Assembly (NCBI RefSeq): GCF_003073045.1
Contig: NC_037590.1
Location: 1,116,001 to 1,180,000 of the forward strand
Source of the DNA: Pomacea canaliculata
Lineage: Eukaryota > Mollusca > Gastropoda > Architaenioglossa > Ampullariidae
DNA: 64,000 bases
Direction of reading: 5' to 3'
Shown: one piece after another, positions 708-58,491 of the stretch
Layout: every line of letters starts with the position of its first letter
How positions within the stretch are numbered: position 1 is the first letter of the stretch
Program-made: the position numbers and the translations under genes
Notes under the pieces: generated by a model
Told to the model about the DNA's origin: nothing
Databases searched by the model: none
The model's input: the letters and a program-made list of their open reading frames with translations, nothing else

Positions 708-3700
708 ATGGCTGCCAGATTGACACTAGACGTGGGGCGAGTGCTGGGCAAGGCTGCAAGCCGCTGTGGTAAGTGCAAGTGGCATGTAGCTTGTACACTG
801 CTGGTGTTTACCGCCCGCCGAGCGTCGCTGTGTACGTTGTGTTTACGTTGCTGTAGCTGTGCGTCGGTGGTGTGGTGGTGGTGGTAGTGGTGGTGGTGCG
901 GCTGGCACCCTCACCTGCACCAGTCGACAACGAGAACTCTTCTGGCCTGCACGGTGTCAATCGAAAGGCTCTGAAGGGAGCCAACATTCCGTTGGCGACT
1001 CGTTCATTTGTCCTTTCGGACGACGCATGCACCACTTGCTGAAATGTTAGGCACGCAAGTGTTCACACTATGAGATGCACACTGTGTGTGTGTTCCTCCC
1101 GCTGAGCTCCAGCCAGTTAAAACTACAGCGCTCACTCACTGGTTTTCATAGGAATCAGTTTTAAAGGTTGTTCTGCCGAAATGTCATGCTAATCGTGGCT
1201 GTGCTACTCGAGATACCGTAGCAGACACGCCATGACCACTGAGCACGATCACAGTGACAACATTAGCACCGTGACCACTGAGCACGAGCCCCGTGACGTG
1301 ACCACTGAGCACCGTGACCACGACGTTGACCCCGCGGCGACCCTGGCACATCCCTGATAGCTCAGTGGGAAAGATGCCGCTGCTGCAGCCCATGGCAGCA
1401 CCCGTGACACAGACTCGACTGTTTACCAAATGCCACAGCTCAGCGTGTTGACTATCAGATGACTAACGATAGATGCTCAGTCTGTTTATGTCCCGCTTAA
1501 TCCGTTTTGAGGTCGTTGCATACGTCACGGTGTTGGGGAGGTATAAGGTCACTGGCCACGTGTATTCTAGACATCTACATTTATTACTTTCTTGTAAAGT
1601 ATGCGGAGCATAAAATAGTGCATTTTCAAGCGGGTATTTATAGCAAGGGTGCCCGGGTGTTTTGTTACAACTCTTTCAGCTGTGGTTGTATTGTCAACTT
1701 TCGTCATTATAGTTTATTTATTAGTGCAGTCAGTGTAGCGAAACAGTGAAACACAGAGACTATTTAAGTCCCTTCTCTAGCTTGACACGTTGACAGAGCA
1801 TGCTGGGCAATAGGGGCACGACGTTTTGGATGAAGACCATAGCCAGCCACCCAACCACTCTCTCGCTCTCTTATAGCACTCTGCCGTGCTCCCCATGTGT
1901 TGTGGGTCAGGAACTGGCTGACGGCTTCTTGTACTTCGGTATTTTCTTCTCAGCAGTTACTTCGTGTGGTGGCAACCCACAATCCCGGAAGGTATTATTG
2001 CTCGCCAAATAGAAGAAACGTGGGCATTCAGATAAAATGAAATCAATATCAGACCTCTTCTTTCGAACCACTCTTGCCACTTGAAAACTATTTGTAATCA
2101 GAGCGATGCCATTTACAAGAGAGCTGAGAGGGTGGAATGATAACCATAGTCTTTAATAATAAAATGGAAACTTAAATATAATAAAGCGCAATATCTCATC
2201 CAAAGGCGGACTCACTGCACTGAACAAGATCACACAATAGTCACAAAGATTTAGAACAAAGATGTATAATAAGTTAACAAAAAAGTAACAAAGATGTGGA
2301 GCAAAATAGTAATAAAGATGTAGAATACAATAGTAACAAAGATGTAGAACAAGTTAATAAATAGCAATAAAGATGTAGGACAAGTTAAGAACTAATAACG
2401 AAGATGTAGGACAAGATCACAAAATAATAACAAAGATGTAGGACAAGATCACATAATAATAACTAAGATGTAGACCAAGATCACAAAATAATAACCAAGA
2501 TGTAGAACAAGATCACAATAATAACAAAGATGTAGAGGACAACGCCAGGACTCGCTGCGTTCCGACAGTAAAGGGAGATCACTGTAGATGTAACAGTAGC
2601 GACTCCAGAGAATAAGCTCAGTGACATCAGGAGAATACTGGGATGATATTGAGTAATCTTGAGAATATGAAGAAATGTTATCACATTATCACAAGAGGGT
2701 GATCATCACTTCAGTTTACTGACTGCAGCTCAAAGTCGCTACCGAAGCGAGTGAAGCAGACGGAGCGGAATCCAGCAATAGATCTAAATAGTTCGCACTT
2801 CAAAATAACATTTTATACATCATATACGTTATATACATTATACATATACATATATACAAACCTGTTGCAAGCCAGAAGACGAAGAAAACACAGCAGAAGC
2901 TCATGTAAACATGAAGGTCTAATACTTTTATCCAAATTGAAGCACGACAACAAAACATAAACAAAATCAAGGGGAGGCCATCCCCTCAGCCAAGGGACAG
3001 AACTCTCACCTTCGTGACATGAATTGTGTTACCAACAGTTTGGTAAATATTTACCCGCGTGTAAAGTTTGCAAGATCTTTGCCCCGTTGTACAATTTGGG
3101 AATCTCCCCAGTGTGCAGTCTGGGAAATCTTTGCTACGTTGTACAAAAGACCTTTAGTCCCTTCGCCTGGTAGCGACAGAGAACATGAGTGGTTCACCAT
3201 GTCTATTGAAGGCAGATCCTAACCCCTACAGTCCTTCATGCCTGACAGTCCGACCTGTTAAGTTGTGGCGTATGCCGACGTGCTCCTCACAGTCTCCTAG
3301 TCTACCATGCTGACTTCCTGTCTGCAGGCTCGTTGCGATGTCTGTCCACGTCGTGCCAGGTGATGTCACGGGAGCCGGTGCGCCCCTCCATGAAGACAGA
3401 AGTGCCGGGGCCCAAGTCTCGTCAGCTACAGCAGGAACTTAACATCATTCAGGTGACATCACACTCACTTAAGACGTGCAGATTGTTTGTAGCCATATGG
3501 TAGCAGTAAGACAATAGAAGTGCAAGTATTCAGTTTATGGTTATTATCTTTATTAATGCCGTGTGGAGCTTATAGACATCTAGTCAGTAGACCATGAAAG
3601 TTTGCATTAGGTAGCGTAAGTGACGTTGTGACATAACAGTCTATCTGCCTCCCCTTCAGATGCCATCTACCAAGCCCTTTATTTAAAAAATTTACAGGGA

Positions 3701-6700
3701 ACTGTCCTGTTTCTCTCAGTCAGCTCTGCTTTTAAGCAACTTTTTTTTTCTATTGTACTGTTGACAAACAACTCTTGCCTCGGTCGGCTCTGCTGACAAA
3801 CAAGTGTCTAACTGACAGGAGGCCGGCGCGGTGCAGTTTTTTGTTGACTACGAGCTCAGCAGTGGCAACTACATTGCGGATGTCGACGGAAACATCATGC
3901 TGGACGTCTACAGCCAGATCGCCTCTATCCCGCTAGGTACTGTACACCTTATATCTATCTCGCTAGGTACTGTACACCTTATATCTATCTCGCTAGGTAC
4001 TGTACACCATGTCTCTATCCTGCTAGGTACTTACATCCTGCTTGGTACTGTACACCTTGTCTTTATCTCGCTTGGTACTGTACACCTTGTCTCTATCCCG
4101 CTAGGTACTGTACACCTTGTCTCTATCCTGATAGGTACTTACATCCTGCTTGGTACTGTACAGTGCCTTTGTGTCGCTAAGTATTACACACCTTGTCTCT
4201 GCCCCTCTAGTTACAGTAAACGCAGATTGCCTGTTCTGCTAGTAGCCTATATGTCATGTATGGTACATTTTGTAGTATATGTGTCATGCATGGTGTGTTG
4301 AGTGGTATGTGTGTCATTTATGGTACTTTTAGTAATATATGTATCATGCGTGGCACATTGAGTAGTATGAGGGTCACGTGTGGCATGTTTGATAGCATGC
4401 GTGTCATGCGGGGTATGTTTAGTAGTATAAATGTCATGCAATACCCATTAAGTAGTTTATGTGTCATGTATGGCATATTTTGTAGTATATGTGTCATGCA
4501 TGGTACATTTAGTGGTATATGTGTCCTGTATGGTACATTAGCAGTATTATGAACTAAGAAACAATTTTAACAAATCAGGTGCAAGAAAACAGTAACAGTT
4601 ATGACTGTGATGACAAAAATTAAATATTGTTTACAGTGGACAAATGTAGCATGAAAATAAAGTAGTAGTAGCATCTAAGTGACACTGAGTGGGGGTAGAA
4701 CACCTGTAGAATGTAAGTGGCACTGAGTGACTGACTGGCACTGAAGTAGAACGCCTGTAGACTGATGCTGTGCCCTATTTCGGGGAAAGATTAGGTTGGT
4801 TTAGGGCCAGAGTGCTGTAACCTAAGAAGCCGTATCAAATAATGTAGTCTTTATCTGAGTGTGTGTTCAAGTTCCCAGGATTTTTCTTACGTCAAAACAG
4901 GACACACCACCACCACCACCACCACCACCACCACATGCACGCAGCGAGAATGAGAACACAGCTAGAGAGTACAGCTGACACAGTTTGTTACAATCATCTT
5001 ATCTGTGATGGATGTTTGTTCTCTATACTTTACAATCAGAGTTTTTTGACCTAGCTGTGACATCAGCATATGGCATAGACACCCAGTGTGGGAGGGTGTA
5101 GGTGGGGTGGGGGTGAGAGATGTCGCCATGTGTCTTACACTTGCTGCTGAATTAGCTTTCTTACAGGGTTTTCCTGACCACTGACATATTGTCCCAGCTA
5201 TTGCTATCAATAACCACTTACATATTGTTCTGACTAGGACTAACAACCACTGACATATTGTCCCAGCTATTGCTATCAATAACCACTTACATATTGTTCT
5301 GACTAGGACTAACAACCACTGACATATTGTCCCAGCTATTGCTATCAATAACCACTTACATATTGTCCTAACTAGGACTAACAACCATTGACATATTGTC
5401 CCAGCTATTGCTATCAATAACCACTTACATATTGTCCTAACTAGGACTAACAACCACTTACATATTGTCCTAACTAGGACTAACAACCACTGACATATTG
5501 TCCCAGCTATTGCTATCAATAACCACTTACATATTGTCCTAACTAGGACTAACAACCATTGACATATTGTCCCAGCTATTGCTATCAATAACCACTTACA
5601 TATTGTCCTAACTAGGACTAACAACCACTGACATATTGTCCCAGCTATTGCTATCAATAACCACTTACATATTGTCCTAACTAGGACTAACAACCACTGA
5701 CATATTGTCCCAGCTATTGCTATCAATAACCACTTACATATTGTCCTAACTAGGACTAACAACCACTTACATATTGTCCCAGGTAGGACTAACAACCACT
5801 TACATATTGTCCTAACTAGGACTAACAACCACTTACATGTCGCCATGGGAAGCAAGTCAGTATACGAGAGTTGACAGTGACGACTGTGAAGACAGATGCT
5901 GGAAATGAACTGTCAGAAACAATTTTAACTGTTTAACGGTGCACTAGATGGTAATGCAGCTTGAGATGTAAAGGTGCCTCACCCCCTAAAGAGAACTGAG
6001 CAGTCAGACAATGAAGATGAGTTTGTGAGAAATAAAACTTGTAACAGTCAATGGCGAGGCTTCAGGCATCGTGTACAACCGATAGTTTATCTTCTCGACC
6101 TTTCTGTTGACAGGTTACAACCATCCAAAGGTCATCGAGGCTTTCAAGGACCCCAGTAACCAGGCATGAACGATACTCTTCCTCTTTCCTTTCTCTCTAC
6201 CTCCCTCTATTTTTCTCTCACTCCTTGGCATTTCTCAAAGTAACTATTGTAAAATCTTCTTTCTGTAGTTGCCATCAAGGTAAAGAGGTTTTTGAGTTTA
6301 TTAATTAGGTTAGACTTGACTTTTTTACTGAGAGTCTGGATGAGATATGTTTTCTTTCTCTTGACAACTTTGAGAACATTTGATGTGATGTTGACTGTGG
6401 GGGGGGGAGCCACCGGCAGCTGCATGGCTGTCGTCATCCGGGTTCTTGCATCTTTAGTTCAACAACACTTGTCGGCATCGCCACCAGAGAATTTCTCACA
6501 GACGAGGGTTGGGATGGCCCGATGTTCGCACGCAGTCCCTAATCCATATACGTCGCTTTATTTCCCTTCTTCTTGAGAATCACTTCACCTTTGACCTCTG
6601 AAGTCTTATTTAGGACATAATCCTAGCTGGCAACATGAGTATTATAACCACAATTACATTGACAAGGAGCAGCTACAACATCTATTTTGCACTGTACATT

Positions 6701-9700
6701 TCTACTCAGAGTAAAACCAAGCAAGACTTGGGAAGTAAAGTTTGATAATGTGTTTGTGTGTGACCTGCAGGCGACCTTTGTCAACAGACCTGCCCTCGGC
6801 ATGTACCCACCACGTGACCTGGTGGAGCGGCTACACACCACCCTCATGTCGGTATGTGTCGGGGACCGTCACTTTAAACACAACCTGGACTTTACAACTT
6901 TTAAAATGTAATGTCTGTCTTTTACCTTAAGAATGAAGCCTGCTACTGTGAACAATAGACCTCTGTGTGTGAAATGTATAAATATTAAAGTAGGCAAATA
7001 TCACATCAAGAGTTGTGTCTCCAGATTCTACATCGCCCGTTTCATCGATAATCATGAAGGGATTCAAAGGAGAGAAAGCAAAAATCTTGTTTGCAATACT
7101 TTTGTAAATAAAATATTCGCAAGAAACAGAGACTTGACTTGAAAATGCTGTCAGTTTTTATTTTGTACATGAAAACTACAGAAGCTCGTGACGCATGTCT
7201 AACTCCTTCGAGGACAAACCATGTGTCATGTCCCGGCTCTTGCTCGGGTGTTCGACCCTATGAAGAACTGATTAGTACCCGAGGATGTGATGAGTACCCG
7301 GATCTCACAAGATGGAGAAATAAAGAGAAGAGACGATGGAAGCAATGAATGCTGTGTTGCAATTTTCTGTAAATATAGTATAACAGCACAGAAACATAGA
7401 TTAAGCTAGTTGTCTCTATGTTATCTTTTGCTCCTTACTAATCACAAATACATGCACGTGTATGCTCACTGTAGGTGGCGCCACCTGGTATGAAGCAAGT
7501 GCAGACCATGGCGTGTGGTGCTTGCTCTGTGGAAAATAGTCTGAAAGCCATGTTCATGACCTATCAGGTACCGTTTGCAGATTTTATTCACTTATCCCTG
7601 TCTCAGTTCTGCCCCTCAGTGTAGTGCGGCTGTCAGAGGTGGGAACCACGTGATGTGAACCACGTGACTGCTTGATGTCGCTTTTTGTCTAGCGACGACG
7701 ACGAGGAGGACAGCCCCCGTCAGCCGAGGAGCTGACCTCCTGCCTCAAGAACCAGCCCCCGGGGTGTCCAGACCTGTCGGTGTTGTCCTTTAACAACGCC
7801 TTTCACGGCCGGACCATGGGTGGGTACCCGCTGACTTCGCTGGAGGCTGTTTCCTCCTTGTGTGTGATGCAGACATTGTTATCTCTTTATTTTAGGATCG
7901 CGATGACCTATTGCTTTAAAATGATTTGCGGCAGGATGGTTACGAACCAGCTAAAGAGTACCCCACCGTCTACCCTGTGTTACTATGAAATCTCTGCTCT
8001 GTGTGTGTGTGTGGAGAGAGATCAGTGTGTTTGTGTTTGTGTACAACTGTGACAGCTGTATTTTTATTTTCTGCCGACAGGAGCGCTGGCCTGTTCACAC
8101 ACCAAGTGGGTTCACAAGCTGGACTTTCCACAACCCGACTGGCCGGTGGCCGACTTCCCGCAACTCCGCTACCCACTGGAGGAGTTTTCCCGCGAGAACC
8201 AACAGGAGGAGCAGCGCTGTCTGGACAAGGTCAGTCTGTGACATTAATCATAGCCTCCAGAAGTGACCCAGAGTTCAAATCTGTGGCACGGAAAATTTAT
8301 GTCACAGCTACAGCCAGTGGAGGTTGGGAGGGATGGGAGTGAATGTTAATTAGACACAGTGAGAAATTGAGCTTTGAGTGCTCGCGTATTTCGAACGTAA
8401 GGGTTACTACTCGCTCTTACTTGGGCAACTGCCATGAACTAAATAAGATCATCTTCCCTCCAGGTGGTCTTTAAGGAACACTCTCAATGGTCTGTAAGGA
8501 AGTCTTCAAGTAAAATATTTATGATTCTGTCGGCAGGTTCGTGATCTTGTGCACACGTGGAACCGCAAGGGTCGTCCTGTGGTCGGCATTGTGTGCGAGT
8601 CCGTCCAGTGCGAGGGAGGAGACAACTTCGCCAGTCCAGCCTTCTTTCAGGGCCTTCAAGATATTGCCCGGGAGGTAAGGCCGTAATGTCAGGACTCTAT
8701 CAAGGTATTGCCCGGCTGTAATCTCCTGTCGGTGCCTCATTGTTTGCCATCATGGTTATCACCGTCACGTGGTTTGTCTGGCAGAACGATGCGTACTTGA
8801 TGCTTGACGAGGTGCAGACCGGCTGTGGCATCACGGGAAAGTTCTGGGCTCACGAGCACTTCAAGCTGCGCGAGCCTCCTGACGTGGTGCCGTTCGCCAA
8901 GAAGATGCTGACAGGCGGCTTTTACTACCGGGACGAGCAGAGGCCGACAGAGGTGGGGACCATCTCCTCCTGCTGCTTTACACGATATAGACGGTCACGT
9001 GACCTCAACCTTCCTGATTACCTTCCCTTCTGTCACCTCACTGACATGTCGTACTGACAGCAAGTTGTCCTGTTGTTACCATGACATCCCTCTGTGTTTG
9101 ACACAAATGTCTTGTCACTGTCAGTGAAGTTGCCAGGTGTCTTATTTACACAAAGGTTGCTATTTGCCGCATGTCTCTGTCATGTCGTTGCCCTGTCATG
9201 ACATTGCATCCTACTGTCCTGTCGCCGTCACGACCTTTGCTAGACTTGGCAGTTGACTGCTTTTTATTGCAGGCGTTGCGGATCTTCAACACGTGGGTGG
9301 GCGACCCGTCCAAGCTGTCGCTGCTGCAGGCCGTGCTGCAGGTCATTCGGGAGGACCGGCTGCTGGACAGGGTGCGCGACACTGGGGAGTACATCCTCAC
9401 GGGGCTGGTCAGCCTGCAGGTCAGTCTCCACAGTGTGCACGTCACCCTGACCCCCACAACTCAGCTGTCGTGGGCGTGTCACATGAGTAGATGGCTTCTA
9501 AACTCTCTCCCTTGGAATGACAAATTCTTGCAGACAGGTTTTCTCGCATACTCGAAATTGCACGTAAACAAACAGCAACAGGTGTAAACAAGCACACAGC
9601 TACAGATGCGATCTTGAAAGTAGCAACAATGGCTGAACGATTGACCAAGTGTAGTTTTTGTTTTTGTTTTTTTGTAACCATCGTGTAAGATTGGTTTCCC

Positions 9701-12189
9701 TGAGATCTACTTCGATAAATATGTCCGGACATATTGTTGTACTCGGATGCGCCTCGGTTACAAGATGTGTGTGAGTGTGTGTGTGTGTGAGAGAGAGATA
9801 AAAGTGTAGGTGGGTACCTCTTTACACCAAAAGAATGTGAGTTGAGTCTTAACTGGGTGTCCTACTCGGTGGTCTGGAAGCCAAGTGTCACGATTATGTG
9901 GAAAAGACATAATGAGCAGACAAGAAAAGGTTACTTAAATGGAGGAGGAAGAAGAAAGTGGATGAACACCGAACGACAATGCACAACACAGTCAGACTGT
10001 ACCCTCACAAAGTACTAGCAGTGACACATAAGCATTGACACTTAACCTAAATATTTAACCTCGAAGGCTGATATCTTCCCTCCTGCTCGCCTCCATCCTG
10101 CTCGTCATGTGTGTGTTGTCTGTACGTCTGCTGCTGTCTCTCCCTCCCCCACCTTCCTGCTTTGTACGTGTCTCTCCATACTTTTCCTCCAATTTTATGT
10201 ACAGATTGTGGAGGTCACAACAGGTATGGGTCAGTCATGTGCGACCTTGGGTTCCCATTCCACTGATACCAGAGTCTGATTAGTCATGCAATGAGTAGTC
10301 CCTTCAGGTCACGTGGTTACCTTGTATGGTCATAAAGCCGTTTGCAGTGCCAGCTGTTAGACTGGCGCATGTCAGGTGACCTTTTAGGGTCAAGATGCCC
10401 TTATGTGGGCACCTACACGGACCTCCCTCTGACCCTGTTGAATAATCTGGTTCCCCATCAGTCCACAGCTACTGTAGCTGGCTACAAATTTTGTAGCTTG
10501 TAGCTTAGCCAGCTACAAATTAAAAAAAAGTAGCTTGTAGCCGTAGCTACATTTTAGAAAGTAGCCGTAGCTTGGCTACATGTTGGCTACTTTCACGACC
10601 ATTCGTCGACAGCGTGTCAGCAAGACGACGACAGCCACTGCTCTCACTGCTCGGTGTGTTGACAGCCAGACACCACGTGTCTCGCGCGCTCAGTAACCGG
10701 AAGTACTGTGTTGTCCAAGTGGCGGGAGCGGTATTTTGTTTCATTTGAAAAACGAAGATGGACGTACCCATCAATTTCCAGCCTTATTTGAAATTTTTTA
10801 CATTTTGCGAAGCCACAAAATGTGGGTATAGTTTCAAATGCAAGAATTGTTGAGAGATTGTTCAGTCTGGCAGGACTTATCATGACAAAGCTGCGCACTA
10901 GGGTGCCAGACAGCAACTTCGAGGCCAAAGTTCTGGTCAAATTCAATTCCATGAAGGACTAAAAGAATGTAGATTTGTTTTAAGGTTACCGGTACACTCC
11001 AAAAATTAAAATCCATATTTTAAATATCTTTAAGGGTTTTTAAATATAGAGTAACAAAATAACATAAATATAGCACTTTAAAACTGTTTTTGAGTACCAA
11101 AAGTGAAAATTGTGACTTTAATCAACGTTTTTGTTTCAAAACGTACAAGCATTTAAAAAACAAATTTACACAATACCGTAAGTCACATACCAAAGGTTTT
11201 GGATTTTTTTGTAAACTAGAGGCACTGATAAGAAAACTGATGCATAAGGCGTTTTGATATCTCAAGATTTCTAGGAGATATAAAAAATCAGACATGGTAC
11301 CCCCCGACTCAGTGTGAATGTGGCAATTAAATATTTAGAAAATATTTAGAAAAATGTTAATTTTATCAAAAGTAATGTTTATACCATATTCTCAAATGCA
11401 TCACTTTGTAGCTTATGCATTTCTAAACAAAATTGCAAAATTGTACTGCTGTAGCACAAGCCAATCTTGAGAAATATGTTTTTATAGTTTAGGACTGGAT
11501 GTCAAAAACGACAAACAGAGAAATTCAAGCTTAAAGATTTAAAATAAATATATCTTGTATCAGATCATTTTTGAAAAATATATTTCAGTGTTTATATGCT
11601 ACATTTGACATTACTATATAATTAAAGTCTATTCTAGTATGCCAGGACTATACTTTTCACCCTATCAGCTTTTGGAAACAATTAGTTTGTGTTCCTTTCT
11701 TTGTTTTATATAATTTCTTTTGTCACTAAAACAGGATGAGGAAAAAGATCCAGAAATGTTTAATATAATCGTAAAATACGTGTACTTATTGTGTGAAAAA
11801 GGCCGGGGGAGGAAGGGGGCAAGGAATGAATGAAAGCATTTATGGATTCACTAAATAAAATTGTCGGTATATCGCAGTTCTCCGTTTCATTATTATAATA
11901 AAAACTTTGTAAAGCAAGTAATAGTGTTTAGTGTGTATGTTTGATGTTTGTGTATGTTGCTACAGCCAGCTGGCTACAGCTAACTTGTTATAACATCACG
12001 CTTTTAAAAGAAGCCAAAAGAAGCTGGCTACATTTTAAAAGTAGCCCAAAGTAGCTGGCTACTTTTTGAAAAATTGTAGCTGTAGTGTAGCCGGCTACAT
12101 TTTGAAAAAAAGTAGCTGTAGCCTAGCCGGCTACAAATTAAAAGTAGCTTGCCCATCCCTGTCAGTCCACTGCATCTTCCTTGACAGAC

Positions 12190-12222
<33 letters not shown>

Positions 12223-12572
12223 GACTATAGCCCGTGATGAGCACAAAGGTCGGCGCAGACTCTGCCAGCCTCTAGAAGTGCACAGGTCGCTACACCAGCA
12301 GCCAGGTCTTTGTGTTTTCCCGTGCATTTCCCGGGAGTCAGTCGCATTATTTTGTTCCAGAAATCCTTCCCGGGTGTGATGTCTAACGCCAGAGGTCTGG
12401 GTGGACTGTGCTCTGTGGACTTTGCTGACACCGCCACCCGAGACAAGGTCATGAGGACGATGCGCAACAAAGGTAACATCGTGCTTGTGTCATCGCCACA
12501 AAGCTGTCTGGCCACCCGCTTGTGCCACCCACATAGAACCACGTGGTGTACCCATCATTCCATTGCAGCAGC

Positions 12573-12605
<33 letters not shown>

Positions 12606-14584
12606 TTGATACAGTGCACTTCCCCGCTGAGCTATGAGCAGTGTGCACAACACTAAAATACAAAAATGGAAAAAGCGACGTGGCTTTATTAAAAATTGGA
12701 TGGTTTACCACTTCCGCTGCTGTGATAAAAGTCTGTGTTTGATAAAGTTTTGCGGTCCAAATTCGAGAAAGTGTGAAATTGCTTGATTTCGCCTTCCTTC
12801 AGAAAGAATTTCACTTGAGCTCTTATTCCTCTGGACCTCTCAAGTCCTTGTCATCCTGCACAGCAAGCAGACTGCGGAAATACGAGTAAATCCACCGACA
12901 CACTTCGAACAGATTTGACTAAAAGCAAGGGGAGAGGGGTGGGATGGGGTTTCTTTATCCTCCGTTGTCATAAAGACTAAAAAAACAACAACAACAACAA
13001 AAAATCGGCCCGCTGCTGTGGCGACGATTTTACGAAATTCGGAATCCGGACACGTGAGACGGGAACAGGTCTGGGATTGTTCCTGGGTTTCTGTAGAAAA
13101 GAAATTTAATTAAAGTAATGCAGATAAAATTGCACCCAGGGAAACGTCTCAACAAACGGAGGGAAATGCAGACACCAGCTGTTGAGCGGTCGATGGACAA
13201 CGAGTGGTCGTTGTGGCCGCCTTGCTGGCGTCATCGCCTTGGAGGTGGGAACCGCCGCTGGTGGCGCTGCTGTCGAAAGCAATTTGCAGCGATGCTGGTG
13301 GTGGGCATGGCCGGCGGATATTAGCACCAGTGTCAGCAGAGACAACAGAGGATTGGGGAGAGAAGATTCTGGTGGGTTGTAAATCCCTGATCCCTGGACC
13401 ACCCGCTGTCAATAACGGCTGTCTTCACTCAATAGTCAAGGGGCTGAGGGCCAAGGGAGAGGGGAGGTAGCTGAGCAGATGACAGAGAGGGGGGGGGAGG
13501 AGCTGAGCAGACGACAAGGAAGAGAGATGATTTAATCGAATACTAGCTAGAAAATCGAAAAGATTCAGGGTTAGATTGGAGAACTATCGGACCTGAGAGA
13601 GGAAGAGAGAACTCAAACTCATCAACAAATCCTGAGAGAGAGACTTAAGGGGGAGTTGGAGGAGAGAGAATTTAATCTACTGGAAGTGGACAAGAAACCT
13701 AACGTGTCATTGAACACCATTTGGTGAAAGGTGGAAGTTTCGGACCAGGACCCGGGTGCACAACAGTCCAAGGCAGGTCATTTAGGCCTAAACTTGTTTT
13801 AGTTCAAAGCAGGATTCTCACAAGCGTTTGAACAGCAATGTCTTACACTAGCTGAGCGCAGTTTAAAGCAAGATGAAACTGTTTACATGCCGATATATAT
13901 ATATTGTTTCCATCAGCACATTAAAGAGTATGAATAGCGGCTTCTGAAGAAAGCAGAGACAGAATACTATTTTCATCAGCAGATGATAATAATCACATAG
14001 TCTGTGCGATTCCAGTGTCTGTTAAAATATAGTTGGCAGGTGCACAGTGTCACCCGGGGTAGATGATCGGTGTCTGCAGTCAGTGTGCTGGTGTTTGCCG
14101 ACAGTCTGCGGTCAGTGTGTGTTGTCAGTCTGCAGTCAGTGTGTCAGTATTGTTGACGGTCTGCAGTCTGTGAGCTGGTGTTTGCTGTCAGTCTGCGGTC
14201 AGTGTTTGTTGCCAGTGTTTGTTGTCAGTCTGTAGTCAGTGTGTCAGTGTTTGTTGTCAGTCTGCGGTCAGTGTTTGTTGCCAGTCTGTAGTCAGTGCAT
14301 TTGCCGACATTGTGCCCATGTCTGTGGTCTGTGTGAGGATGACCTCAGTTTGCATTGCTTCACAGACCGCAATTAAGCACTGCTGTACAGGTGGGAAATG
14401 TTGTGACAGGTGTGCGACAGTCTCGGGGTGTGTAAAACTGTATGACTGACTATTTGTGACAGGTGTCAACGCTGGCAACTGCGGAACCGTCTCCTTGAGA
14501 ATCCGACCGACATTAACCCTCAACCGACAGCAGGCCGACATCTTCCTGGACACCCTACGGACAGTGGTCAGCAGTCTCAAGTAA
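708..14584 (+). CDS. ABAT: 4-aminobutyrate aminotransferase, mitochondrial (13 exons, complete)
   Basis: PLP-dependent GABA transaminase: converts GABA plus 2-oxoglutarate to succinic semialdehyde plus glutamate in the mitochondrial matrix (GABA shunt). Exons read from splice sites and frame: 708-768, 3328-3452, 3819-3936, 6114-6163, 6771-6851, 7475-7567, 7693-7819, 8081-8229, 8537-8674, 8785-8952, 9273-9419, 12361-12472, 14463-14584. They total 1491 nt, or 496 aa (human is 500). The N-terminus is Arg/Ser-rich without acidic runs after residue 8, as in a mitochondrial presequence. Visible motifs: MACGACS keeps both Fe-S cysteines (the Ser of human CGSC is Ala here); FHGRTMG carries the substrate Arg; QCEGGD; LDEVQTG with the PLP Asp and Gln; AKKMLTGGF with the Schiff-base Lys; RIRPTL near the C-terminus. 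All exon phases join cleanly. The exon 4 donor is GC rather than GT. The start at 708 is chosen for the presequence; an in-frame ATG at 690 is the alternative. Third positions are often G/C, unlike GTPBP1 next door. Confidence 0.95.
2230..2540. repeat. Minisatellite, about 31-bp unit, ABAT intron 1
   Basis: Degenerate A-rich tandem repeat. The core is AACAAAGATGTAGGACAAG, followed by ATCACA or TTAATA variants. About ten copies are visible; those toward the 3' end are the most alike. Confidence 0.8.
3931..4204 (+). repeat. 30-bp minisatellite carrying the exon 3 splice donor
   Basis: The repeat begins inside ABAT exon 3. Its first unit holds the real exon end, CGCTAG|GTACTG, at 3931-3942. Further units follow, mostly 30 bp and twice 18 bp. 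Eight later copies keep GTACT at the donor position (GT at 3967, 3997, 4027, 4045, 4075, 4105, 4135, 4153). A tenth degenerate unit reads CTAAGTATTA. All nine donors share one phase and the frame stays open through the whole array. Confidence 0.9.
4250..4549 (+). repeat. 30-bp minisatellite, ten units, ABAT intron 3
   Basis: Ten successive units of 30 bp with the pattern TGTGTCATGYATGGTACATT then TAGTAGTATA, with moderate divergence between units. The unit is unrelated to the donor-bearing repeat just upstream, although the length is the same. Confidence 0.88.
4905..4934. repeat. (CAC)n microsatellite
   Basis: About ten uninterrupted CAC triplets within ABAT intron 3. Confidence 0.9.
5165..5840. 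repeat. 69-bp composite minisatellite, ABAT intron 3
   Basis: About eight near-identical 69-bp units, each made of two related half-units. One half holds CACTGACATATTGTCCCAGC plus TATTGCTATCAATAA; the other holds CACTTACATATTGTCCTAAC plus TAGGACTAACAA. Extra single half-units occur near 5455 and after 5760. Because 69 is divisible by three, the minus strand has a long open frame of hydrophobic 23-residue repeats. It lies antisense in an intron and is not called as a gene. Confidence 0.92.
6161..6168 (+). other. GC-AG splice donor of ABAT exon 4
   Basis: Exon 4 ends AACCAG and the intron starts GCATGA. The next exon (6771) continues the conserved FVNRPALG motif in frame only if this GC donor is used. 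The nearest GT, inside CCCAGTAACC, would shift the frame. Confidence 0.8.
10466..12161. mobile_element. hAT-like DNA transposon remnant, 1.7 kb, ABAT intron 11
   Basis: Flanked by an 8-bp target duplication TCAGTCCA (10458-10465 and 12162-12169), the size typical of hAT elements. The right end, read inward on the minus strand, starts CAGGGATGGGCAAGCTAC; the left end starts CAGCTACTGTAGC. Both ends hold dense inverted copies of a GTAGCCGGCTACA-type motif spanning about 100-180 bp. The AT-rich middle has no transposase-length frame. Near 10790-10900 on the plus strand a Cys/His-rich stretch ([16 protein letters not shown], later YHDKAAH) is interrupted by stops and could be a decayed BED zinc finger; that is a weak reading. 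Most likely a non-autonomous or decayed copy. Confidence 0.82.
12187..12223. repeat. (ACAG)n microsatellite
   Basis: About nine tetranucleotide units immediately downstream of the hAT-like element, in ABAT intron 11. Confidence 0.85.
12573..12650 (-). repeat. SINE or LINE 3' tail with (ATT)n
   Basis: On the minus strand the sequence reads CAGCGGGGAAGTGCACTGTA, then TCAAATTATTATT and more ATT triplets. The GGGGAA..TGC..TGTA..ATT pattern matches the end of the SINE at 34678-34936, so this is probably a truncated insertion of a related retroposon in ABAT intron 12. Confidence 0.5.
12651..14049. other. ABAT intron 12, no gene seen
   Basis: Intron sequence with small frames on both strands and purine-rich low-complexity patches around 13470-13680. 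The open stretch pair near 13100-13470 overlaps on both strands without recognisable protein features. Confidence 0.5.
14050..14310. repeat. Degenerate minisatellite of GTCAGTCTGCGGTCAGTGT type
   Basis: Repeated TTGTTGTCAGTCTGCGGTCA and CAGTGTGTCAGTGTTTGTTG motifs, with irregular unit lengths near 17-35 bp, shortly before the final ABAT exon. Confidence 0.75.
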
Positions 14585-14710
14585 AGTGCATCATCAAGAA
14601 AGCTTTAGCCTCCGGTAGCCTGCAGTCGCCAGTAAATACCTTCCTCCACTAGACCCGCAGTCAGCGAGGTCAAGCCTGGTGCAGACGACAGCTCCCCTCT
14701 CCACCCTCTT

Positions 14711-19097: not shown

Positions 19098-22000
19098 TTA
19101 GGATTTGCTGGAGGAGGTGGGTGGTGTGATGCTGCTGCCTGGGGGGGCACCTGCAGAAAATGAATGTGAGATGTTCAAAGACGTTGGAGGCTGGGGTGGG
19201 GCCACAGTGGAAGGAGTGGTACCGTTGGGCATGCTCACTGGCTGCAGCACATTTTCCTTGTAGGCATCATAGTCACTAGCAGATTTCTGAGAACGTCGGT
19301 TGCGCTTGCTCGGTTTCTGTGGCTCATTCTGAGGATTAAGAGGATGCTTTGTTTCCTGCTGTGCCTTTTTTGTGGCACGCTGCTGCCGCGTGTTCTGAGC
19401 CACGGCACTGACATGAGGGAACAAGTTGGTTATTGTGCCAACTGCTTTTGTGCGACCTTCCCGAAACACTAGACGCATGCCCATTTTGAGATACTCAGGG
19501 TTCTTGATAAAGCGGAATCGAACCATGGCTTTGTCACCAGTGCGCAAATGTGGTTCTGTCATCTGAAGGATGGTAGCTGTTTGCCGCACGCTGCCCACAT
19601 GCACTGGGGACATAAATAACATGGAAAGCTTTTTAAAACACAACATTCACAGTTCTTTGAAAATAACTCTGGGACATGTTTACACAGAAAGATAAAAGGA
19701 CAGGCAAAAGAACTGAATACTTTAAACTTCATATCTTTCCTAGTCAGTCTTCCGATTCAAACTTTATACAGTTCCTTTTACACTTCCTCAAAGCATGTTT
19801 TGATATGGTTAGCTTTCTTTATTACCATAATAATCAAAACAAAAACAGGTGAACAAAAGTGAGATAAAGAAAACAAGAAACAGATTCTCTCAGCTAAGAC
19901 AACTATGAGCTCACTATCAGCAAAACAAAGACCTCAGTAAGGTAATTCTAGAGAAAAAGAGAGAGTGAAGAAGAATGAGACAGTGCAACATACTGATGCA
20001 CACAATGTACAAATACTGTCACATACTGACAGAATGTGAGGTTAATGAACACAACTATGCACAAGTACTGCTACTGTCAGCCTACTCACCCATTGCCTGA
20101 TAGCGTACACTGATGGTGGTAGGGTGGTGCAGTACTAAAATCTCACCCTCAAACTCCCAGCATGCCTTTGGTTCTAGTCGGGGTGAGACCATCACCATAC
20201 CTTTTCGTATTGTGGACCTCTTGATCTACATTTAACAGAAATGCATACACAACTTTGTTTGTGACAACTGTTTTAGACAGAAATGCAGAAATGCACACCT
20301 TGTTCAGCACCATGCTGTAACTACTCTTTTCTTCTGCTTCTTTGCCATTATATCATAATCTAAGAAATCAAGTACATTATTCATGTACAGACTTATTATG
20401 TCACCCTCTTCCAAGTTTCGATCTCAACATTTACGTAGATATTCAATTAGCTTGGATGGTTTAGACATTCTCTTAGTCTACACTTTTTTTTTCATTTAAT
20501 GTTATCATTTGTACTCACAGGTCTGCTAAAACAGTTTTGTTTTAAATGTAAGTGACCTCACTTGTACCTTTTTGAGGGCAAATGATGCTGTCTGTCCTCC
20601 ACGGACCTCCTTGACAGGCATTCGCTTTCGGTGGATGGATTTAATGACAATAGACTGAAACTGGCCAAGGGCATCTGGCCCCAGGAGAAGTGTGTCATTA
20701 AGTCTGATGAAGCCTTGCAGCAGTGTGCCTGACACCACTGTTCCCACACCCTAGGCAAACAGAATTACTGTTGCTGAAGGTTAGGATACTCAGCAATTGT
20801 AGTAGCACAGAACTATTGATACAAAATACTACTTTGACCCTAATGAGTTGAAATGCAAAATAATAAGCATGCAACTTAAATTTAATTTGTTAATGTCATA
20901 CACAATCCTACATATGGATTACTTAGGCTAGAATCTGTTTCCATAATATGTACTATCACAAATTGCATGATTTTTAGTTTCCTTGTTTGTATCAACATTC
21001 AATGATGCAAAAAAATGTTCAGATGAAAGCAGTATTTCATTCTGACCAGAGTCAGCATGATGTTTGAGACTCACAGGCACTGAGAATGTATCATCAATCT
21101 GAAATTCAGCAGGTTTGGAAATATCACACTTGACTCGAGTAGACAAGAGATTCAGGAACATTTTTAGGAGATCCAGATTTTCCCCTGTTACATTCGACAC
21201 CTGGAACACGGGACACATCCTGCAAAACACAGCACCTATATGAATACTTGACGAACGGAATATACTCTGCAGGTAATTCATCCTGGATGTTTGGAATAAG
21301 AGAAAGATAAACTCTGAGACATGCAGCACCATTACATGAACACTTGAACAACAAGACATCCACTGAAGTCACAGTGTTTAAGCAGCTAGAATATTATAGA
21401 GAAACTCCAACAACACACAATGCCACTGAAGGACTAAAGCACTGGCAATATGTGTGAGCACACAATATTGGAATGTTGTCAGTCTCTGAATACTCAAAAT
21501 ATTGAGAATTCTTTGGTAACTTTTAGCAGCAAACTGCAAACTAGCAGATACTATAGCAGTTTTCAATATACATTCTACACAAATATCTGAAATAAGACAC
21601 CTCCCAGACATAAAGAAAAAGTTTGTAGGCTAGAAACCTAGACAATGGACTGCAATAAATTTCTCTACTGAAACCTTTTATCCCACAAATACACAGTAAA
21701 CTAAAGTTATGTGAAATTGAACTATTGTATTTTTTTTTTAAAAGTAATGAACAATAAAAATTTGGCAATATATGCTCTTGTGATGATGATAAATATTTGT
21801 CAACTACTAACCTTTCAGAGGTAAAGTTTGTGGCAGAGCAGATGACATCATCCTTGTTCTGCACAATAACTGGAATTTTTCGACAACCAGGGGACTTGAG
21901 TATACGTGTTAGGAGCTTGAGTGTCTCAGCCATGACATTAGGTGGACACATGTCAACTTTTGTTACAACTACAAAAACAGGAACATTCAAGGCCAATGCC

Positions 22001-25000
22001 AAACCAAGGTGTTCTTTCGTCATACCAATGACACCAGCATTGGCACCAATCTGAAAATGAAAAGTAATGGTAGCATTAGTGACGCCAAATTACATCATAC
22101 ACACTCAGCATTTGCACAAATCTATGAAAAGAGAGATCATTGATTTCAAATAAGCTTTATTACTGCAGCTGAAAGATTTTTAATTTCCCGGAAGTACTTC
22201 CAGATAAAAACTTCTTAACAAACTTAAGCAAAATAAAATGATTAGACCATATCTAGGAGAGTAAACATCATGGCATCAAAGAAACTATAGAACACAAGAG
22301 TACTTGCAGGCAACATAAACAAAAGGTTTATTTTTAGTTATCTGATCTTGTTTTAGATCCATAGGCTATCAGACACATCTCATAAATAACAGCAGCTGAA
22401 ATATGTAAAAGACCAAATATGTTAAACATAGACAATTCTCACCATTAGCATAGCAAAGTCTGGGGCATGGCCTGTCATGCCAAAGACAGTGGTTTTCAAG
22501 TACCGTTCATGGCCGGCCAAGTCAATGAAAGTGACCACCTGACACCAAAGATAAATACTTCATAACATACTAAATCTTTTCACGAAAAATACATCCAAGA
22601 AGCCACATGGTTTCAAGAGCAGTTGTTCTTCTCAAAGGCAATAATTAGTCTTCAACTAGCAATATATAACACATAAAAACTTGATCCAGAAAATAAATCA
22701 ACTCTGGTGTTTTTCAAAATCATAATTATTATCATGAGAAAGTTTAAAAACAGAAAAAAATCTGCAGCATCACTGAAAGTACCAGACATGTTCTGAAACG
22801 CAAAAAAACAAAAGCAGACCTTTCAGTCTGACAGAGGGGAGACAGCTCAATGCCTGCGACCAATGATGCAGTTGCTCAAAACAACGGAAACTTCTTAACT
22901 GTCAGATAGCCTATTTACCTTACCCTTTCTTATTTTACTGACATGTCTTGAATGCTCATGCAAAAAAAGTTTTAGATTTGTCTTCTTGTACCTACTTCAT
23001 TCTTAACCTGGGGAAATCCTATACACACTTTTCTAAATATAATAATAAAAATAAGTACTTTTATATTATTCGACACCCAATAAGGCCCAATGCAATTTAT
23101 AATCCTGATACACGCCTCCCCCTAAACCAAACATCTCATAAAAAAATACACAAAAGACACACACATATATTTATGCAAGCTACATGAACATATACAATCC
23201 CTCACACACACACAAGCCATACAGCAATGGCAGTCTCACAGCAAGAACATAAAATTATACACTGCACATGCAAATGGAGGATTATTAAGGAAAATTTGGC
23301 TCTTGCCCTCCCCACTTGTCTCACTATCCTACCGATGTCTGCCTACCTTGGTAGCATCCTCACAGATCTTTATCCAGTCCAGATGCCCATGATCAGGTTT
23401 GTTCACCACGTTACCACAAGCATCAAATCCCAAGATGTCGTTGCCAACACTGCTTGTCCGACCAGACTCTATTTCATGTTTATGTCGGAACAGCTTCTGT
23501 CGTGCAAAGCCCCGGCCATTGTCAAGTTCTCCATGTGTCAGCACCCCAAGCAGAGTGCTCTTTCCTGCATCTACATTGCCAACAACTGCTACTCTGGACA
23601 ACATAAAAATAAACACTTGCTTTGAAAAGGTCATCTCGTTAAATTTCATCACAAATACATTTCACCACATTTACACATGCTAAAAAACGTTTTACCTTCT
23701 TGATTATCAAAGTATTTTGAATTCATTTCTCATCTATTTTGAGATGATTTTTGATTATTTTCCTAAAGTACACACTGAAGTGAAAAAGTGAAAGTGCTTG
23801 TCCTACTACAGGAGCCTTTTACGGTGCCTTCTTATACGAGAATGTCATCATGACAGAATATACACATGCCTAAGTCACTCAATCAAGCTAGGGCATATAT
23901 CCTAGTTTGACACGTTTTACAAACTGACAGACTGTGTCATACCAGACAGTATGATATCAATCATATTGTTTACCTGACTTCCATAAAATCATGAGGTTCC
24001 AACTTTTGCCGCAATAGGTACTCTGCAACTGTACCTTCTTGGGCTGTTCTCTCCCGCAATAATACACACTCCAGACCAAGAGATGAAGAGATGCTGTGCA
24101 GGGTGGCCACTGATGCTTGATAGTCATCTGGTTTTAAGCCAGCCTTCTCACCCTCTGAAAAAATAAATAAAATAAACAAATTAAAAACGTAAGTTGTTTT
24201 TTTTTTTCTTTTACTGATTTTTTACTTTGAAACCCACTCTTTCTCACTATCAAACACTTTTAGTGTGAAAAAGCTCAGTGGAAAAGCTGAACTATTTTAA
24301 AGATTTTGCACTCTGAATAAAGAAATTTAAACTTTACAGATTTGTTATTATATCCAGGCCACTAAACCATTTAAATTGATTGCACGCCCACCACAGAGTG
24401 AACAGTTACTTTGTACAATCCTTTACCTAAAAGGGAGACAATTTGGACCTATGAAGGTCATTTTGAATTTGCAAAATACAGAGCACTTTACCTCCTGTTC
24501 CAATTTCATAGATGGTTTCTCCTTGTGCATCCAAGACACGGGTTTTGATAGTCTCCACCAGAAACTCAAACTCTTCACTGCTGGGGCTGACGAGCACCAT
24601 CTAAAAAAACAGCAAATACAAATAAATATTTTCTAAAAATGATTTATATGAAAATCATCATCCCAACAAACATCTCACTAAATAAGTTAATCATCTTGGG
24701 AATTTATAAACAATCAAGAAAAATAAGATGTTAAGAAAAATAAGATGTTAAGAAAAATAAACTCTTCTTTTAGATGGAACAGTATATTATGGCCTACGAT
24801 ATGGAGCAATACATTATGGTGGCTAACAGGATTCTAAAGATGTAAAAAAAATAAGGGATACATATACTGTAAATGTGTATGAATGTGAGGCAGAACTAAG
24901 CAGCAGTAAAACATTCATGCATGCTCTTACATACATACTCTTACATAAACACACACATACATAAACACACACATACATAAACACATATAATACTCTACTG

Positions 25001-28100: not shown

Positions 28101-28326
28101 TCAGTGTACAAGCATGATATCAGGAGTTTGACCTAGTAAACAATAGTGAGAAATGTCAATAAGACCTGTTTTATGTGTGTTTGTAGGCAAGAGAAATAGT
28201 ATGTAAACAGGGTGGAGCACACAGATAGGTGACTGCATAGACTGGTGTATGCAACAGAGGTGGCACCAGTCAACCAAATAGTTTGTGGAACATGTTATGG
28301 GGTTACAGCTGACACACTGCAGCCAC
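25114..28326. promoter_or_regulatory. Shared upstream region of GTPBP1 and JOSD1
   Basis: The two start codons face away from each other across about 3.2 kb. A candidate JOSD first exon carries ACTTCCGG (ETS-type site, 27437-27444) and ends in a plausible donor GAAG|GTAGAT at 27449/27450. It could splice to the acceptor CACTGCAG|CCACATGG at 28322/28323, just before the JOSD start. Short frames such as 26976-27290 show no protein motif. Otherwise the sequence is AT-rich. Confidence 0.5.
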
Positions 28327-30977
28327 ATGGAGACACGAGAGCCAATCCCTGTAGAGGGGGTCTACCATGAGCGTCAGATGAAGGAGCTGTGTGCTCTGCA
28401 TGCACTCAACAACCTCTTCCAGTCTGGCACTGCCTTCACTAAGAAAGATTTGGATGAGATCTGCGTCAAGTGAGTTTTTCCTTATGTTCATGTACCTCAC
28501 CTTATATTTCTTGCTCATATCTGGATCTTATCTAATCCTTTGTGCTTTTCCACAAAGCTTTACGAAAGAAAATGTTATTGCTAGAACTAACTTTAAGTGA
28601 GCAGTAATGAGGATGCATATTGAGTTATAGTTGCGTTCCATACAATAAAGGTCAAAAGAGAAATCACTTAAAGATTACTAAAACAGCATTTTCAATCCTT
28701 TATACTGCAGCAAAAGAATAAATTTATCTTACAGTCTCACTGTTTTATGTGGGGAAATACTTGTGTTAGATCCATATTACTTTTGTTTGCAGGTAGTCAT
28801 ATATAGATATATATGCATGTGCTGACATTGCATGGCTCTATAATCACACCTGGTTTCATAGCTTAAGCACGAATATGTATATGTGGACTGATGTCTGCCA
28901 GGACCAAAGCTTAGTCTCTTGCGAAGTTCTCAACTGTTAATCTCGGCGAGACTAGAGCATGAATTTGACTAAACCTGAAGCTTTGTACACACCAGCCTTG
29001 TTCTAGTAGTTAACTAAAACAAAATCGTCTGCAAGTTGGCCGTTGATACAAGTTCGTGGTTTTAGCCATGAGGAACTTTTTTTTAATACAATTTTTAGTA
29101 TATTTATTTGTCTCTGTATGCACTAAAGTAGAAAGTAAAAAGGAAAGTTATTCTGACTAGTACTCCGTTTTAAAATTGATTTAGAACTGGCAGAATTACT
29201 TCATAAAGAATTAGCTTTAACTGGATACACAGATCGCACCATGGTACTTTTCTTATGGATATATATATGTATTTATTTGATCAACATTTAAAAACTTTTT
29301 AATGTGAATGATTAACACATATAAAATCAGTATTGACGTTATCTTGTTTGCAGACTGTCACCGAACGCTTTTATTAACCCACATCGCAACATCCTTGGCC
29401 TTGGCAACTATGATGTCAATGTCATCATGGCCGCATTGCAAAAAAAGGGATATGAAACAATTTGGTTTGACAAGAGGAAGTGAGTCTGTTGTCAGTGTTA
29501 TTTTTTTTTTAAACTGAGAATCCTTTCATTGTTGCTGTTATTCGCATGAAGTATACTCTTATGGTAATTATTATGGTGTGAGGAAGCAGATTGGAAAAGA
29601 GCTACAATGGTCACCTAATACTTTGTGCGGCTTACTAAAGGAGCACTTAGATCAGTGGTGAAGCATATGCACATTTATTTCACTACTTTTGTCATCCTGT
29701 ACAAATATTGTGTCTGTGTTTATAGCTGTCGTCCTTTACAAATTGTGTCTATGTTTATGGGGAAAGTGAATTTAATTTTTCCATCAGTCAATTCAACTGG
29801 TATGAGTTGATTCGACAATAGCCCATGGTCTATTTGACCACAACTCTGTCAGTTCAACCATTGCCTACGGCTGATTCGACCAAATCATTTATTATGTAAT
29901 TTGGCCACAAATAAGTGAATTTTAATGTACTCCTTTTTTGTCTTTGGTTGATGCACGTCAATCTTGCTTTTGTGTGTGAGAGAGAGAGAGAAGGGAGGTT
30001 AGATCCAAATTAATTTAAATCAGATTTTTAACATCCTATTTTTTAACTCTTTACACTTTTATTTAAAAAAGCATGGCCATGAGCTGTGCAGCTGTGCCAT
30101 GCCAATTGTTCTGCTATTGCTTAAATTAACCAAGGAATGTTTTGTTTTTGTTTTCTTGCTCGTATATAGATATTCACACGTCACATCTAACATCGCGTAC
30201 TTTCATTTGATAACAGTAGTGGCTGACCTACATATATCATGTGACTAATTTGTATAGAAAAAATATTTTGTTGACATTCAATGAGCAACAAATGTGTTAT
30301 TTCACTAAAGAGTAACTTCTGCTTGGTGGTCGAATGGACAATGGCTGTGGCCAAATCGACTCATGATCATGGTCGAATCAACTCTTGTGTGGTCAAATCA
30401 ACTGGTAGCCATGTTTATAGCTGTCATCCTGTACAAAGCATCTTATGTTGTTGCTGTGGATTGCACAATGAGTTTTTTATTATACTGTATGTGGTACTTG
30501 CATTATTCATTATCTTGTAGAAAGTTTAGCTTGTAAGTGATTGCAGTAGTACTTATTTCATTTGATAGTATTTCATCTTTAAAGACACGATTTGAACTGA
30601 GGTTGATAAATATTTATTGCAGAGATGTGGGTGTTCTCGTTGTTGAGAATATCATGGGTTTTATCCTCAACACTCCCACGGACTATCGGCTAGGATTTGT
30701 TCGACTTCCATTTCATCGCAAGCACTGGATAGCCATCCGCAAAGTAGGGGACTTCTTTCTCAACCTTGATTCAAAATTGGACAGTCCTGAAATGATTGGT
30801 GGTCCAGATGATCTAGTGACCTTTTTGCGACATGAGCTGCGAGAAGGAGATAAAGAGTTATTACTAGTCGTGGATGCTAGAGTCAGTGAAGCCGCTTTGT
30901 GGCGAAGAGACAGCCTGACCTTAGCTCAGCACACTAATCATTTAATGAATGGGTCTGATGAATTGAACAATGTTTGA
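28327..30977 (+). CDS. JOSD1: Josephin-domain deubiquitinase (3 exons, complete)
   Basis: Cysteine protease of the Josephin (ataxin-3/JOSD) family that cleaves ubiquitin conjugates; vertebrate JOSD1 acts at membranes and JOSD2 in the cytosol. Exons: 28327-28469, 29354-29479, 30623-30977, giving 207 aa against 202 for human JOSD1. The Josephin fold spans almost the whole protein. Catalytic residues by alignment to ataxin-3: Cys22 in [10 protein letters not shown], His124 in RKHWIAI and Asp139 in [23 protein letters not shown] (exon 2) and DVGVL...MGF (exon 3) resemble JOSD1 more than JOSD2. The ATG sits in CCACATGG, just after a possible acceptor at 28322, implying an untranslated first exon. 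The last 25 residues are an acidic, Asn-rich tail without clear counterpart. A pre-duplication JOSD1/2 ancestor is equally possible. Confidence 0.93.
28885..29068 (+). repeat. Dispersed repeat, copy A (JOSD1 intron 1)
   Basis: Shares collinear blocks with 50873-51050, for example CTAGTAGTTAACT against TTAGTAGTTAACT, GACTAAACCTGAAGCTTTG against GACTAAACCGGAAGCTTTG, and ACACCAGCC. It contains the perfect palindrome AGTCTCGGCGAGACT. The family is unknown; it could be an old MITE or SINE. Confidence 0.7.
29759..30410. mobile_element. MITE-like inverted-repeat insertion, JOSD1 intron 2
   Basis: A 652-bp block flanked by ATGTTTAT (29751-29758 and 30411-30418). Removing it restores a simple tandem repeat of about 36 bp (ATTGTGTCTRTGTTTATAGC then TGTCRTCCTKTACAAA), visible at 29692-29758 and 30411-30440, so the flanks look like a true target duplication. 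The ends carry imperfect inverted repeats rich in GTTGATTCGACCA motifs. No coding capacity was seen. Confidence 0.65.
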
Positions 30978-57461: not shown

Positions 57462-57702
57462 CATAAGAAGACTGCGCTATAGTCAGATGTTGCACATGTA
57501 ACTATTTTGGAGAGTGTTCGTGTGTGTGTGTCTAGGAGCTGCAGGATATCAGGGCAAAATAAAATAAAAAGAAAGAAAAAGGAAGACTGAAGAAAGAAGT
57601 GGTCGATATCTAGCCATTCACTGGCAGTTATTTAGTTCCAGCCGATATATCATACCGCCGACCTACTTATCGACCGCACGACCTGGCCTCTGCTCGACCC
57701 CG

Positions 57703-58345
57703 TCTTGTCTCTCTCCATCTTGTCTCACACGGTCTTGTCTCACATAGCCTTGTCTCACACAGTCTTGTCTCACACGGTCTTGTCTCACATAGCCTTGTCT
57801 CACACAGTCTTGTCTCTCTCCATCTTGTCTCACACGGTCTTGTCTCACATAGCCTTGTCTCACACAGTCTTGTCTCACACGGTCTTGTCTCACATAGCCT
57901 TGTCTCACACAGTCTTGTCTCACACGGTCTTGTCTCACATAGCCTTGTCTCACACAGTCTTGTCTCTCTCCATCTTGTCTCACACGGTCTTGTCTCACAC
58001 GGTCTTGTCTCACACAGTCTTGTCTCACACGGTCTTGTCTCACATAGCCTTGTCTCACACAGTCTTGTCTCACACAGTCTTGTCTCACATAGCCTTGTCT
58101 CACACAGTCTTGTCTCTCTCCATCTTGTCTCACACGGTCTTGTCTCACACGGTCTTGTCTCACACAGTCTTGTCTCACACGGTCTTGTCTCACATAGCCT
58201 TGTCTCACACAGTCTTGTCTCTCTCCATCTTGTCTCACACGGTCTTGTCTCACACGGTCTTGTCTCACACAGTCTTGTCTCACACAGTCTTGTCTCACAC
58301 AGTCTTGTCTCACATAACCTTGTCTCACAAGGTCTGGTCCACACG
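57703..58345. repeat. 15-bp minisatellite with higher-order pattern, about 43 units
   Basis: Units are CTTGTCTCACACGGT, CTTGTCTCACACAGT, CTTGTCTCACATAGC and CTTGTCTCTCTCCAT, arranged in recurring blocks of four to six units. The 15-bp unit leaves long frames open on both strands (up to 236 codons). These are products of the periodicity, not genes. Confidence 0.95.
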
Positions 58346-58491
58346 GTCTTATCTCACCACAGACCTGTCTCAAATCCGCGGTCTCACTAAAGAATAGGTT
58401 GTAGAGGAAGTGCTACTCCCCCTGTGAGAGGAATCTGTTCTCTAGTCTTTCACTGCTTGTACGCCACAGACTTGGTTCCTTCAGTTGACCA

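Follow-up and report, generated by a model that had tools for sequence, protein, structure and literature searches.

In Pomacea canaliculata, the boundary between the third exon and third intron of a GABA transaminase gene (ABAT) is repeated nine times in tandem, an arrangement that is far beyond chance. We interpret this array as most probably a minisatellite of the kind termed a mirage in amphioxus, in which the transcript is spliced chiefly at the native junction (first intron base 3937) and the additional junctions are near-neutral. The array was analysed within a window, the whole stretch of 64,000 nucleotides from positions 1,116,001 to 1,180,000 of contig NC_037590.1, and coordinates below are those of the window.

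The gene lies on the + strand, with a start codon at 708 and 13 exons. These exons were joined by hand into a protein of 496 residues without any insert, which matches the TIGR00699 profile at 576.9 bits, above the cut-off of 567.15, over profile positions 4 to 463 of 464. By sequence, then, the gene is a eukaryotic GABA transaminase. When exons 1-4 were aligned to the pig enzyme (1ohv), there was no gap where exon 3 meets exon 4. The features of this region, all on the + strand, are listed below; a slash marks a splice junction here and in what follows.

3819 to 3936, +: ABAT exon 3, coding, ending in phase 1 (CTA G/), placed by its frame and its homology to pig 1ohv, with an acceptor (aactgacag) before 3819
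3924 to 3936, +: 13 exonic bases, TCTATCCCGCTAG, encoding S-I-P-L-G by alignment to the pig S-I-P-I-G; the unit took its left part from here
3924 to 4218, +: tandem array of 30-bp units and two units of 18 bp across the exon 3/intron 3 junction, from Tandem Repeats Finder and a listing of the units
3937 to 6113, +: ABAT intron 3, phase 1, 2.2 kb, defined by its junctions
3937 to 4044, +: block 1, 108 bp (30+30+30+18), identical to 4045-4152 at 99 of 108 positions
4045 to 4152, +: block 2, 108 bp (30+30+30+18), identical to 3937-4044 at 99 of 108 positions
4153 to 4218, +: junction copy 9 and two degenerate copies, from the unit listing
6114 to 6163, +: ABAT exon 4, with a GC donor after it, from its junctions and donor scoring

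The donor of intron 4, at 6164-6165, is apparently GC (CAG/GCATGA) and of poor consensus; no in-frame GT donor was seen nearby. It could belong to a true GC-AG intron or reflect a base difference in the assembly.

The alignment to the pig enzyme, the TIGR00699 match and the unit listing bear out the gene, the exon 3 boundary, the phase and the nine copies given in the original prediction. That prediction also placed the start of the repeat in the last codons of exon 3, and Tandem Repeats Finder begins the array at 3924, within the exon by exactly its last 13 bases. The first intron bases of the nine junction copies are at 3937, 3967, 3997, 4027, 4045, 4075, 4105, 4135 and 4153, from which we recovered the same eight spacings as had been proposed (30, 30, 30, 18, 30, 30, 30 and 18 bp), all multiples of three. 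Six of the nine copies read TAG/GTACT and three TTG/GTACT, and one phase is common to all. A degenerate tenth copy at 4181 (GCTAA/GTATTA) lies 28 bp further on and is out of phase, and an eleventh at 4211 (CTCTAG/TTACAG) has lost the GT. The left edge of the array is sharp; before 3924, only 6 of 24 and 8 of 24 bases resemble the unit. Together with the 108-bp higher-order duplication and the decayed right edge, this is typical of minisatellite turnover. The frame was said to contain no stop up to 4301; it is indeed open, but the first in-frame stop after exon 3 is a TGA that itself occupies 4299-4301. It is not clear that the in-frame and open character of the copies is meaningful, since two of the three forward frames are free of stops over 3924-4160, including one besides that of ABAT, and since among the eight spacings only about two lengths, 30 and 18, are independent, the four-unit block of 108 bp being itself duplicated.

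The unit was derived from the gene in which it is found. On its left it consists of ABAT coding sequence, S-I-P-L-G aligning with S-I-P-I-G of the pig enzyme, and exon 3 is thus the source of the repeat. The 13 exon bases recur in the copies at up to 13/13 identity, with an identical 13 before 4105. A 24-base unit pattern searched with up to 3 mismatches against the genome (440,159,624 bp in 24 contigs) had at least 6 matches, a lower bound as are all counts in this search, and all 6 of the matches listed were in the junction array; the same search gave no reverse-strand match, and a reversed-pattern control also gave none. With a 521-bp DNA query, the locus itself and one 75-bp match (87%) were found, the latter inside a neighbouring array at 4240-4551. 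The unit therefore spans an authentic exon-intron boundary (3936/3937), coding by homology on its exon side, and the copies descend from the boundary of their own locus.

These are the properties described for the amphioxus mirages of Adh3 and the globin genes BflGb6 and BflGb9, where an exon-intron boundary has been duplicated in tandem in the manner of a minisatellite, many of the copies bearing AG/GT (PMC3087553, in the part available to us). The snail array likewise duplicates an exon-intron boundary, and that of BflGb9 too is a 3' exon boundary. Unit lengths in amphioxus are 10-72 bp for Adh3 and 150-160 bp for the globins, and the same report describes these arrays as unstable in length with regular splicing kept (PMC3087553). 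The snail array differs in its occurrence in a mollusc gene, in its 30-bp unit and in its nine in-phase copies. It is a further case of a known kind, distinguished by its in-phase units and by the acceptor-like character described below. A related arrangement is the Rogers model of intron gain, as in the potato RdRp case, in which duplication across an exon-intron boundary likewise multiplies AGGT (PMC4974935, as far as seen); the snail copies, in contrast, sit within an existing intron.

We suggest that the array began with the tandem duplication of a segment made up of 13 bases from exon 3 and 17 from intron 3, and that it then grew through slippage or unequal exchange, with the 108-bp four-unit block also being duplicated. 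Since the copies come after the native junction and would be spliced out with intron 3, they should be mostly harmless; low-level use of some may perhaps occur. The number of copies probably varies, and the 108-bp duplication is suggestive of such instability. By analogy with the amphioxus mirages and with the human CBS VNTR, it is likely to differ between individuals. The latter, c.1444_1467+7(16_21), is a 31-bp repeat polymorphic at 16-21 copies (PMC2630376, seen in part). By its name, the CBS unit holds 24 exonic and 7 intronic bases and so, like the snail unit, a donor junction each, but 31 bp is not divisible by three, and polymorphism is documented in CBS.

Donor strength was scored over 720-14600 from human donor frequencies, not from a species-trained model. 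On this scale the native donor at 3937 scores 2.44, the lowest among the 11 GT donors of ABAT, the next being 4.06; the GC donor of intron 4 scores 1.54. Copies 4027 and 4135, at 3.63, score above the native donor, and the three TTG/GT copies, at 0.44, below it. Among the 1034 GT dinucleotides of the scanned region, 405 reach 0.44 or more, 200 reach 2.44 or more and 124 reach 3.63 or more. Every junction copy is thus predicted to be a poor donor, yet the native site has no clear advantage over them. Given its weakness and the higher scores of two copies further along, 3937 need not be the sole donor in use, and leaky use of 4027 and 4135 is possible. Two out-of-phase sites just downstream, at 4293 and 4305, score 7.55 and 6.80 by the same frequencies. 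Sequestration of the donors in RNA structure was considered and rejected, as the segment 3900-4190 folds no more strongly than its shuffles (z -0.11, with 88 of 200 at least as stable).

The original prediction suggested that the choice among nine in-phase donors, each joined to exon 4, could create ABAT length variants, or else that the copies might be decoys. The added residues would number 0, 10, 20, 30, 36, 46, 56, 66 or 72. In keeping with length variants, none of the nine copies is out of phase or interrupted by a stop, and 4027 and 4135 outscore the native donor. Alternative splicing was reportedly described for the CBS VNTR by Lievers in 2001, which we count in favour of this reading. 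Against it, the score of the three TTG/GT copies is one that well over a third of the GT sites in the region reach (405/1034), and a forward frame other than that of ABAT is equally open. Nor was any signal of coding constraint or reading-frame selection seen among the six full-length units, although the data are few: their 13 differences from the consensus fall at codon positions 1, 2 and 3 in the ratio 6/4/3, and comprise 3 synonymous and 10 non-synonymous changes, raw counts with no neutral expectation alongside, from differences that are non-independent, two of the six units being identical. Any insert would also split a conserved stretch, falling between the counterparts of pig Gly78 and Tyr79 in the alignment. 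This point is six residues after pig Ile72, counted on the pig alignment, and Ile72 is listed among contacts in a docking study, in the part seen; inserts would be expected to enter beside the active site. When a 72-residue insert was placed in a partial protein of exons 1-6, the family match was obtained only as two separate stretches, and large inserts at this position are likely to be harmful. With weak donors, no sign of coding constraint and an insertion point at Gly78/Tyr79, the claim of length variants found no positive support, and we regard such isoforms as unlikely.

The copies also have an acceptor-like side. In the six AG/GT copies, the pyrimidine fraction at -20 to -5 is 0.69-0.81, compared with a mean of 0.47 over 941 AG sites, of which 5.3% reach 0.75 or more; for the 11 true ABAT acceptors it is 0.44-0.81. 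Each AG/GT copy is therefore shaped like a dual-specific site and could serve as donor or acceptor. We examined 70 arrays (32 in the window and 38 in 200 kb elsewhere, taken as 20 stretches of 10 kb), and only the junction array has at least four pyrimidine-preceded AGGT sites on either strand; one other has four AGGT without pyrimidines. The precedent for a tandem array of dual-specific sites is human polyubiquitin UBC (PMC10809524, seen in part), which shares with the snail array tandem AG/GT at unit boundaries and a period divisible by three. In the snail, AG/GT stands at the unit boundary, behind a pyrimidine tract, in six of nine copies, the other three being TG/GT. The units of UBC, in contrast, are whole coding monomers, and use of its sites was demonstrated by RT-PCR (PMC10809524), whereas the snail units are mostly intronic and their sites are candidates.

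Two readings build on this character. In the broader one, the array would be an intron-edge counterpart of polyubiquitin, where stochastic AG/GT splicing yields either an in-frame ladder of ABAT proteins or silent recursive intermediates, over a range set by the repeat number of the individual, and where the sliding of an intron boundary has been caught in the act; we hold this to be quite improbable. In the narrower one, the six AG/GT copies would act as both acceptor and donor for recursive splicing, with stepwise removal of units and an mRNA that is unchanged if 3937 is used first. The pyrimidine fractions, the rarity of such arrays and the UBC precedent all speak for it, but the donor scores are low, the introns implied are just 30-198 nt, and an intron of 2.2 kb needs no ratchet. 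The pyrimidine richness, moreover, may simply come with the exon-derived part of the unit, and the copies are non-independent. Recursive splicing of this kind is in our judgement very improbable. That an assembly artefact inflated or reshuffled the copy number is scarcely credible, even though one draft genome carried a faulty assembly of the amphioxus BflGb6 mirage (PMC3087553, part seen), since an artefact is unlikely where the units are non-identical and form a higher-order block at 92% identity, and where the array, at about 300 bp, is short relative to the PacBio reads of the P. canaliculata PacBio/Hi-C assembly (PMC6129957, part seen).

As a probable mirage-like minisatellite, the array is of interest chiefly with regard to intron evolution. 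Such arrays offer natural experiments on donor choice by the spliceosome where near-identical donors stand side by side, on possible shifts of intron boundaries and on intron birth. All junction copies here are in phase, and splicing at any one of them would yield an in-frame product that could be counted. If the splicing machinery passes over the copies, as reported for amphioxus, this would be a clean case of tolerance; if they are used, it would be an unusual polymorphism of protein length. Resequencing data for P. canaliculata exist, with 173 genomes (PMC11417965, in the part consulted).

The surroundings are rich in minisatellites. Arrays of period at least 12 make up 9.2% of the window (5,913 of its 64,000 bp), versus 1.8% of the sequence sampled elsewhere (3,663 bp in 20 stretches totalling 200,000 bp); the window is 1.1 Mb from a contig end. 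When the eight arrays of ABAT were placed at random without restriction, a donor was covered in 84% of trials and an exon edge in 92%; with at most 13 exonic bp allowed per array, these values were 9% and 17%. Both nulls used 7660 as the start of exon 7, later put at 7693, which shifts 1 of 24 edges and no donor. The position of the array is mildly unusual under the restricted null and ordinary under the unrestricted one and, in view of these trials and of the minisatellite-rich surroundings, a minisatellite at a splice site is not very surprising.

Several other repeats were seen. The array at 4240-4551, just downstream of the junction array, also has a 30-bp period but is more diverged; a search for a common origin of the two gave a best rotation of 14/30 identical (shuffle P 0.17), which does not establish one. 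A 69-bp tandem array at 5177-5838 in intron 3 contains many CTAAC branch-point-like words and a strong donor-like site at 5783. Well-preserved arrays lie at 44025-44270 (36-bp unit, 6.8 copies) and at 57702-58372 (15-bp unit, 44.7 copies, with a 150-bp higher-order period). Elsewhere in the window, open frames at 20526-24600 on the - strand, by their appearance to the eye, presumably belong to a GTP-binding protein gene, and those at 28282-29500 on the + strand resemble, again by eye, what we take to be a Josephin-type deubiquitinase.
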